Shown here: positions 32,782 through 40,270 of the stretch, piece after piece
Layout: every line of letters starts with the position of its first letter
Position numbering within the stretch: position 1 is the stretch's first letter
The notes under the pieces: generated by a model
What the model saw: the letters and a program-made list of their open reading frames with translations, nothing else
What the model was told of the DNA's origin: nothing
The model's database searches: none
Made by a program: the position numbers and the translations under genes
Origin: Immundisolibacter sp.
GTDB lineage: Bacteria > Pseudomonadota > Gammaproteobacteria > Immundisolibacterales > Immundisolibacteraceae
DNA length: 64,000 nucleotides
Direction: 5' to 3'
NCBI RefSeq assembly: GCF_014359565.1
Contig: NZ_JACIZD010000004.1
Location: 62,001-126,000, forward strand

Positions 32782-32808
32782 ACTGCGTTTGCAGCGTCAA
32801 AACGCAGT
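32782..32808. promoter_or_regulatory. Inverted repeat overlapping the leuA promoter
   Basis: A 9-bp perfect inverted repeat, ACTGCGTTT (32782-32790) and AAACGCAGT (32800-32808), has a 9-nt centre. It covers the -35 and most of the spacer of the leuA promoter, where an operator would be expected. Read on the minus strand it is a hairpin followed by TTTTT, so it could also act as an intrinsic terminator against minus-strand transcription into mtaD, whose ATG is 24 bp away. Confidence 0.5.
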
Positions 32809-32816
32809 GCTATAGT
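32789..32816 (+). promoter_or_regulatory. leuA: Probable leuA promoter
   Basis: TTGCAG (32789-32794) and TATAGT (32811-32816) are separated by 16 bp. The -10 has 5 of 6 consensus bases. Transcription would start near 32823, giving a leader of about 260 nt before the leuA GTG, far longer than needed for initiation alone. Confidence 0.55.
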
Positions 32817-32844
32817 GCCGGCGCTCCTCGCAATTGCAAATTCC

Positions 32845-32973
32845 ATGACCCGCAACCGCCCGCCTGTCCGTGCCCTCCCCGCCCGCGCCCCGCGCGGCGC
32901 CGGCCCGCGTGCGTCCGCTGCCCTGACCTGCCGGCCGCACGGCCTCCTGCCACTGACGCTGCGACTGCCGTAA
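32845..32973 (+). CDS. Possible leucine leader peptide (LeuL-like)
   Basis: A 42-codon open frame begins about 22 nt after the predicted start of transcription and ends about 110 nt before leuA. Its last eleven codons read HGLLPLTLRLP: five Leu codons (CTC, CTG, CTG, CTG, CTG) within nine codons, directly before TAA. A hairpin lies downstream. This is the layout of ribosome-mediated attenuation, in which starvation for charged tRNA-Leu stalls the ribosome over the Leu codons. No strong Shine-Dalgarno is visible, and CTG is common in this high-GC genome, so chance remains possible. Confidence 0.4.
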   Translation: MTRNRPPVRALPARAPRGAGPRASAALTCRPHGLLPLTLRLP

Positions 32974-33032
32974 GGCAGACACACGCATGCCCTGGCGAGG
33001 GCCCCCAGTACGCACACTCACTCAGACAACAA

Positions 33033-33069
33033 GGCCGCGGCGGCAAGCCTGCGCGGCCGCCCGTTACTG
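33033..33069 (+). terminator. Hairpin in the leuA leader, possible attenuator
   Basis: GGCCGCG (33033-33039) pairs with CGCGGCC (33052-33058) and an inner GG/CC pair is possible. It is followed by GCCCGTTACTGTT, a broken U tract. It ends 26 nt before the leuA GTG and just before its GGAG ribosome-binding site (33074-33077), so it could act by termination or by hiding the ribosome-binding site. Confidence 0.45.
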
Positions 33070-33084
33070 TTCCGGAGACCGGTC

Positions 33085-34623
33085 GTGAGCAAGGACAAAC
33101 TGATCATTTTCGACACCACCATGCGCGACGGCGAGCAAAGCCCCGGCGCCGCCATGAGCCGCGAGGACAAGCTGCGCATCGCCCGCGCCCTGGAGCGGCT
33201 GAAGGTCGACGTCATCGAGGCCGGCTTCCCGGCCTCCAGCCCCGGCGATTTCGCCTCCGTGAAGGCGGTGGCCGAGATCATCAAGGACGCGCGTGTGTGT
33301 GCCCTGGCGCGCACCGGCGATGCCGACATCGACCGCGCCGCGGAGGCCATCAAGCCGGCGGCGGCGCCGCGCATCCACACCTTCATCGCCACCTCGCCGC
33401 TGCACATGGAAAAGAAGCTGCGCATGACGCCCGACCAGGTGGTCGAGGCGGCGGTGCGGGCGGTCAAGCGGGCGCGCCAGTACACGGACGACGTTGAGTT
33501 CTCGGCCGAGGACGCCGGGCGCTCGGAGATGGAATTCCTGTGCCGCATCTTCGAGGCGGTGATCGACGCCGGTGCCACCACCATCAACGTGCCGGACACG
33601 GTCGGCTACAACCTGCCGCAGCAGTTCGGCGAGAAGTTCCGCTACCTGATCGAGAACATCCCCAACTCGGACAAGGCCATCTTCTCGGCCCACTGCCACA
33701 ACGATCTGGGCCTTGCCGTGGCCAATTCGCTGGCCGCCGTGATGGCCGGCGCCCGGCAAGTGGAATGCGCCGTCAACGGCCTTGGCGAGCGGGCCGGCAA
33801 CGCGGCGCTGGAGGAGATCGTCATGGCCGTGCGCACGCGCCAGGACCTGTTCCCCTGCGACGTGGGCGTCGACACCCGGCACTTGCTGGCCTGCTCGAAG
33901 CTGGTGGCCGCCATCACCGGCTTTCACGTGCAGCCGAACAAGGCCATCGTGGGTCTGAACGCCTTCGCGCACGAGTCCGGCATTCACCAGGACGGCGTGC
34001 TCAAGAGCCGCGAGACCTACGAGATCATGCGCGCGCAGGACGTCGGCTGGCAGGACAACCGCCTGACGCTGGGCAAGCTGTCCGGGCGCAACGCCTTCAA
34101 GCAGCGCATGACCGCGCTCGGCTTCGAGTTCGCCAGCCAGGAAGAAATGGCCGAAGCCTTTCGGCGCTTCAAGGAGCTGGCCGACAAGAAGCGCGAGATC
34201 TTCGACGAGGACCTGATGGCGCTGGTCACGGACATGGACCTGAGCCAGGCCAACGAGCGCATCAAGCTGGTCGGCATGAAGGCCTGTGCCGAGATCGGCG
34301 AGACGCCGCAGGCCACCGTATCGCTGGTCGTCGACGGCGAGGAGCGCAGCGCCACCGCCGAAGGCGACGGTTCGGTGGACGCCACCTTCAAGGCCATCGA
34401 GGCAATCGTGAATTCCGGCGCGCAGCTGCAGCTGTACTCGGTGCAGAGCATCACCTCCGGCACCGACGCGCAGGGCGAGGTCAGCGTGCGCCTGGCGCGC
34501 GACGGCATGGCCGTGAACGGTTCCGGCTCCGATACCGACATCGTGATCGCGTCGGCCAAGGCCTACGTCAACTGCCTGAACCTGGTGCTGGCGGCGCGCT
34601 CGCACGCCGCGGCGGGGGTCTGA
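33085..34623 (+). CDS. leuA: 2-isopropylmalate synthase
   Basis: LeuA condenses acetyl-CoA with 2-ketoisovalerate, the first step of leucine synthesis, and is feedback-inhibited by leucine. The 512-residue protein is full length: the catalytic barrel with [12 protein letters not shown] at residues 10-21, metal-binding [12 protein letters not shown] near 203, [11 protein letters not shown] near 235, then the C-terminal regulatory (LeuA dimer) domain from about 390. The GTG start at 33085 has GGAG 7 bp upstream. It stands alone, without leuCDB in the window, and has a long leader with possible attenuation. Confidence 0.96.
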
Positions 34624-39836: not shown

Positions 39837-40270
39837 GGCGGCGGCTCCGGTACCGGCCCCGATGCCCCAGCGGGCGCCGGCTGCTGCGGCGACTCGGCCC
39901 CTGGCAGCGGCTCCACCGTCGGCAGCGGCAGGAATCCGGTCAGGCGCGCCAAAACTTCATCCTCGCCGACCCGATGCACCACCAGCTCAAGCCGCCGCAA
40001 CGCTTCCTCGTCGTGAGCCTGCACCGTGACCTGCAATCGCTCCCCCGCCATTGCCTGCTGCCGCTCGACGTGATCGCCCGGCAGACCGTCCAGACGCAGC
40101 CGCCCGAGCGTGTTGTGCGCCGCCCAGGTGGCAAAGGTGCGCTCCTCAAGGCCCCGTTGCCGGCGCGCCGCGCCGCCGATCGCCGCCGTGGCGGCCGCCA
40201 GCGTGACCGCCACCACCACCAGCGCGATCAGCACCTCCAGCAGCGTGAAGCCGCGCATCGGCCCGTGCAT
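39833..40270 (-). CDS. gspI: Minor pseudopilin GspI
   Basis: A 145-residue minor pseudopilin that nucleates the tip complex. The leader is MHGPMRGFTLLEVLIALVVV, with canonical Gly and Glu5, followed by a helical spine and a small beta domain with FATWAAHNTLGRLRL near residue 50 and a Pro-rich C-terminus. The ATG at 40270 overlaps the gspH TGA; the internal ATG at 40258 is an alternative. Confidence 0.92.
   Translation of the reverse strand: MHGPMRGFTLLEVLIALVVVAVTLAAATAAIGGAARRQRGLEERTFATWAAHNTLGRLRLDGLPGDHVERQQAMAGERLQVTVQAHDEEALRRLELVVHRVGEDEVLARLTGFLPLPTVEPLPGAESPQQPAPAGASGPVPEPPP

Follow-up and report, generated by a model that had tools for sequence, protein, structure and literature searches.

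The leuA locus

The window (the whole stretch of DNA analysed, 64,000 nucleotides) contains leuA, a 2-isopropylmalate synthase gene, downstream of a putative promoter, a short leader frame ending in leucine codons and a series of predicted RNA structures (Table 1). The leuA product is approximately 70% identical to that of many gammaproteobacteria. The gene stands alone, as had been noted before: leuC lies on another contig, and the genes 3' of leuA encode pyruvate dehydrogenase E1 (named by eye from their translations). A preliminary description of this DNA had also reported the promoter, the 42-codon frame ending LLPLTLRLP and the hairpins, all of which are present as described. As an account of the element it was incomplete, since it did not include two structures that prove to be conserved, P1 (32965-32978) and P2 together with its pseudoknot (32989-33013).

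Table 1. Features of the leuA upstream region, in window coordinates
Feature	Position	Strand	Detail or evidence
Sigma-70-type promoter, TTGCAG-16-TATAGT	32789..32816	+	TTGCAG 32789-32794, 16 bp, TATAGT 32811-32816
Leader peptide ORF, 42 codons, MTRNRPPV...GLLPLTLRLP	32845..32973	+	ATG 32845, stop TAA 32971-32973
Candidate leader strand of base stem (CGGCC-GCAC-GG-C-CTCC), pairing with leuA start region	32932..32947	+	Duplex -18.7 kcal/mol
Leucine control codons, five Leu in last nine codons	32944..32970	+	Rarity in window; comparison across the class
P1 hairpin CTGCC-GTAA-GGCAG, leader stop codon in loop	32965..32978	+	Covarying forms; covariance-model match 54.4 bits
P2 hairpin GCCCT-GGCG-AGGGC	32989..33002	+	Two-sided changes in 3/4 pairs (64 sequences)
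Pseudoknot, loop GCG 32995-32997 with CGC 33011-33013	32995..33013	+	Covariation of outer pair
P3, GC-rich hairpin taken as terminator in the preliminary description; no U tract	33033..33058	+	Fold; T content
leuA Shine-Dalgarno GGAG and start region GGAGACCGGTCG, candidate Shine-Dalgarno side of base stem	33074..33085	+	Identical in three congeners
leuA, 2-isopropylmalate synthase, 512 aa	33085..34623	+	GTG start 33085; start conserved

Conservation of the leader peptide

The leucine codons at the end of the window leader are spaced, with a longest run of two, whereas relatives have runs of up to six and ends such as LLLLLLP and LLVLLLP. CTG codons abound in this GC-rich genome, and the preliminary description allowed that the enrichment could be due to chance, in which case the frame would have no function; the comparison refutes this reading, which is now hardly credible given the rarity of such an end in the window and its conservation over the class. 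In the 64 kb window, on which the chance of such an end was computed, 1195 stops on the two strands follow a run of 20 or more open codons; only one of them, the leader stop, has at least five Leu in its last nine codons. A frame with at least five Leu in the last 12 codons, ending no more than 260 nt from leuA, is present in 120 of 231 distinct leuA upstream regions; shuffles that keep dinucleotide composition contain one in 89 of 2310, or approximately nine expected per 231.

The leaders of 93 non-redundant relatives with a Leu-Pro end have a median length of 35 codons from the first ATG (interquartile range 32-39) and end mostly in LLLP, RLLP or LRLP. Amongst 92 relatives, a promoter-like site 5' of the leader scores well above shuffles (13.26 vs 10.41, t=22), while the signal for a second promoter between leader and leuA is slight (t=3.4). 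The existence of a leader peptide gene before leuA, and selection upon it, can be regarded as settled on these comparative grounds.

Alignment of leaders from relatives, a check suggested in the preliminary description, reveals conservation of the frame, the Leu-rich end, the position of the stop and the hairpins. In two congeneric genomes, G001 and G002, the promoter hexamers and their spacing are identical to those in the window. G002, which is 95% identical to the window, keeps the promoter, the frame and the Leu-rich end. G001 also keeps all three, with a frame of 83 codons and the end LSLLLALRLP, followed by an identical CTGCCGTAAGGCAGACAyACGC. The G001 leader (L003) contains an insert of approximately 95-120 nt of inverted repeats (e.g. 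CTGAAAAATTCC...GGAATTTTTCAG), across which the frame is still open; this insert looks like a small repeat element. Comparison of the congeners thus indicates that the sequence drifts in mid-leader, but that the Leu-rich end, the stop and the structure that follows are held.

Conserved structures P1 and P2

P1 is a 5-bp hairpin whose stem covaries amongst relatives (CTGCC/GGCAG, GCCGC/GCGGC, GCGCC/GGCGC and TGCCC/GGGCA). The leader stop codon starts within the loop in approximately 40 sequences and just past the hairpin in approximately 16. Since the hairpin is also present in sequences with a displaced stop, P1 is kept independently of the stop.

P2 follows P1 after a spacer with a median of 11 nt. 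It has a consensus stem CCCU:AGGG, with covariation, and a GGCG loop, whose last three bases, GCG, pair with CGC a few nucleotides downstream. The outer pair of this pseudoknot is GC in 51 sequences, GU in five and AU in three, with no mismatches. The partner CGT occurs with all three GACG loops and with five of 56 GGCG loops (Fisher p=0.0017, for sequences that are not independent). Presence of ACGC or ACGT was a condition for the sequences that seeded the covariance model, so that the two invariant pseudoknot pairs carry this selection and the varying pair alone is informative. When the structure is taken as a whole, 95.2% of cells are paired, compared with 28-41% when it is slid by one to three columns. 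Comparison thus shows P2 to be a compact predicted H-type pseudoknot, conserved before leuA in many gammaproteobacteria. Many species have an unrelated hairpin in place of P2, with the Leu-rich leader and P1 still kept. Short GGCA:UGCC alternatives between P1 and P2 can be seen by eye. No family in Rfam matches the leader element.

Specificity and distribution

A covariance model of 19 sequences was run on 184 genomes of the class with a cut-off of E <= 1e-6. Of 43 strong matches, 42 lie directly 5' of leuA. The remaining match, L278 (G083:C96:3400-6400), is a decayed, orphan second leader, comprising a peptide end, P1 and P2 with no leuA after it, in a genome that also carries the leuA copy of the leader. 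Outside the class, good scores were obtained only in two congeneric genomes of another class of the phylum (L293 and L294), where a Leu-rich leader and the same P1 hairpin, CTGCTGCCGTAAGGCA, precede a distant (approximately 30% identical) 2-isopropylmalate synthase. As the model matches almost only before leuA, control of this gene by leucine is the natural inference, and leuA is very probably controlled by the leucine codons of its leader.

Elsewhere in the window, positions 40052-40100 give a weak model match of 14 bits that has ACGC and a P1-like part but lacks P2; this is probably due to chance. A second type of leader is seen in a betaproteobacterial and related set (L067, L070, L076, L080, L081, L091, L098 and L101), which ends LLARPLLRRAR or LLRLAR and has Leu codons without P1 or P2.

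Complementarity between the leader and the leuA Shine-Dalgarno sequence

Leader positions -40 to -3 are complementary to the leuA Shine-Dalgarno region beyond what is found in GC-matched swaps between species (t=4.5, 93 species). This and the related tests are to be read with the knowledge that multiple windows and scoring schemes were tried and that the species are not independent. In the run-length test, neighbouring control regions gave values near zero and the P1/P2 region a negative one; for both P1 and P2, pairing to the leuA Shine-Dalgarno is absent or avoided. At least eight contiguous Watson-Crick pairs between leader and Shine-Dalgarno are found in 12 species, against 4.4 expected, and the probability of Shine-Dalgarno pairing from partition-function folding is 0.43 vs 0.35 (t=3.0). 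An initial species-swap test gave z=-4.85, which is in part a GC effect, and a duplex-energy test with GC matching was not significant (t=-1.74). Leu codons are by composition similar to an anti-Shine-Dalgarno sequence, and some pairing arises free.

Strong single pairings are present in L240 (11 contiguous pairs), L125, L042 and L064. In two congeners, L235 and L237, the leader:Shine-Dalgarno pairing occupies the same position but is made by different sequences. In the window, the candidate stem is a bipartite duplex of the leader strand with the conserved GGAGACCGGTCG, containing a bulge and a mismatch, and G001 is similar. The free fold of the window species lacks this pairing, with a probability of about 0 (0.01 by partition function).

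Comparison with known systems

The LEU element of actinobacterial leuA was described by Seliverstov et al. (2005; PMC1262725) and was looked up after the leader:Shine-Dalgarno pairing had been found here. In both systems a leader ORF containing Leu codons precedes leuA. In the LEU element these codons form a base stem with the leuA Shine-Dalgarno, a pairing that is supported here over the 93 relatives and is weak in the window species. The LEU element further has a pseudoknot between the strands of the base stem, where the present element has the P2 pseudoknot, and no terminator is described for it. The likeness is one of plan, by published description, and concerns another phylum; the gammaproteobacterial element differs in having a separate P1 hairpin that holds the leader stop. 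The authors of the LEU element were sceptical of codon-based control in Actinobacteria and put forward a regulatory protein (Seliverstov et al., 2005). In the full-text literature covered, no description was found for these gammaproteobacteria, although some cases may be included in the attenuation survey of Lopatovskaya et al. (2010).

The leu attenuator of enterobacteria and Shewanella (Rfam Leu_leader) likewise has, ahead of leuA, a leader peptide containing Leu codons, with hairpins downstream. The present element differs in that it lacks an intrinsic terminator with a U tract, has spaced Leu codons and no Rfam match, and precedes a leuA that is outside any leuABCD operon. The stop-codon hairpin, the pseudoknot and the leader:Shine-Dalgarno complementarity appear to fit the plan of the LEU element better than that of the E. 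coli leu leader.

The ermC and cat leaders are translational attenuators, in which stalling of a ribosome in the leader frees a sequestered start site. A start freed by a stalled leader ribosome is also proposed here, but the signal would be amino acid shortage rather than an antibiotic, the anti-Shine-Dalgarno strand would lie within the control codons, and a pseudoknot is present.

Proposed mechanism

We suggest that leuA is subject to translational attenuation with a layout similar to that of the LEU element, stalling of the ribosome at the Leu codons freeing the leuA start; from the sequence comparisons, the probability of this reading is put at about 0.55. When leucine is plentiful, the ribosome would complete the leader peptide and depart. 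The Leu-codon stretch could then pair with the leuA Shine-Dalgarno, with P1 and P2 occupying the loop between the two strands, and translation of leuA would be poor. Under a shortage of charged leucine tRNA, the ribosome would stall on the Leu codons and cover the anti-Shine-Dalgarno strand, leaving leuA free for translation.

More tentatively, the element may represent an undescribed, class-wide translational leucine leader RNA with a pseudoknot core, in which the same nucleotides serve as sensor codons and as anti-Shine-Dalgarno sequence; the plan would be common with Actinobacteria, through convergence or deep ancestry. Little is known of leucine regulation outside enterics. The comparison provides a defined RNA element, together with a model that can be used for searches, in many gammaproteobacteria whose leuA region lacks Rfam annotation. 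Should the sensing codons double as anti-Shine-Dalgarno sequence, one simple design would link amino acid shortage to the translation of a single gene. This design would then occur in two distant phyla, and the unsettled actinobacterial LEU element could be tested in easier hosts.

Alternative mechanisms

Leader switches based on Rho are established elsewhere, as in TnaC and MgtL. Applied to leuA, such a switch would operate when leucine is sufficient: the ribosome departs and transcription is ended by Rho before leuA is reached. A stalled ribosome or an alternative structure would hide the loading site, which P1 and P2 may shape. The absence of an intrinsic terminator is consistent with this, as is an excess of C over G after the leader stop (0.33/0.15 at +10 to +20 and about 0.29/0.14 at +40 to +60), but this signal is weak and partly reflects the base composition of the spacer. 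The distance from leader stop to leuA is only 75-82 nt in L049, L042, L057 and L218, which is tight for Rho, and the leader:Shine-Dalgarno complementarity is left unexplained. Control by Rho thus seems rather improbable.

In attenuation of the enteric type, P3 or P2 would be an intrinsic terminator, and the Leu-codon leader and hairpins that this requires are present. The preliminary description proposed ribosome-mediated attenuation, with the GC-rich hairpin and a broken U tract as terminator. Control through leucine codons is upheld, and the hairpin at 33033-33058 is real, but no usable U tract follows it (GCCCGTTACTG): the sequence after P3 is GCCCGTTA in the window and GGCCGCCC in G001, where P3 itself is not kept and a different hairpin lies at the same place. 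All 59 P2 structures lack a U tract, none having at least four T in 8 nt (mean 1.15 T, maximum 3), and Rfam Leu_leader gave no match at the gathering score or even at E 5, so that the enteric terminator type is not sustained. Some lineages may nevertheless use a terminator, as a scan from leader to leuA found GC hairpins with at least five T in 8 nt in 15 of 103 leaders, against 4.2 expected; intrinsic terminators would be present in a minority of leaders at most. As a general account of the element, a terminator is unlikely.

A classical four-segment attenuator was also considered. The arms of P1 and P2 look interchangeable in some species, but there is no terminator after P2, and the presence of another hairpin at the P2 site in many species is a further point against it.

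It is very unlikely that the P2 pseudoknot binds a protein or small molecule, with the leader peptide merely tuning the response. P2 is almost confined to leuA upstream regions, and the sequence of its loop and of the strand downstream shows strong conservation (CCTGGCGAGG...ACGC), but the pseudoknot pairs account for much of this conservation, and in many species P2 is swapped for an unrelated hairpin with the Leu-rich leader and P1 retained.

The end of the leader (32944-32970 and its equivalents in relatives) is unusually uniform, with RLLP or LRLP before the stop, often encoded with CTG CGA CTG. This uniformity exceeds what Leu codons alone would need, and a nascent-chain effect at the Pro-stop, as in TnaC, is possible.
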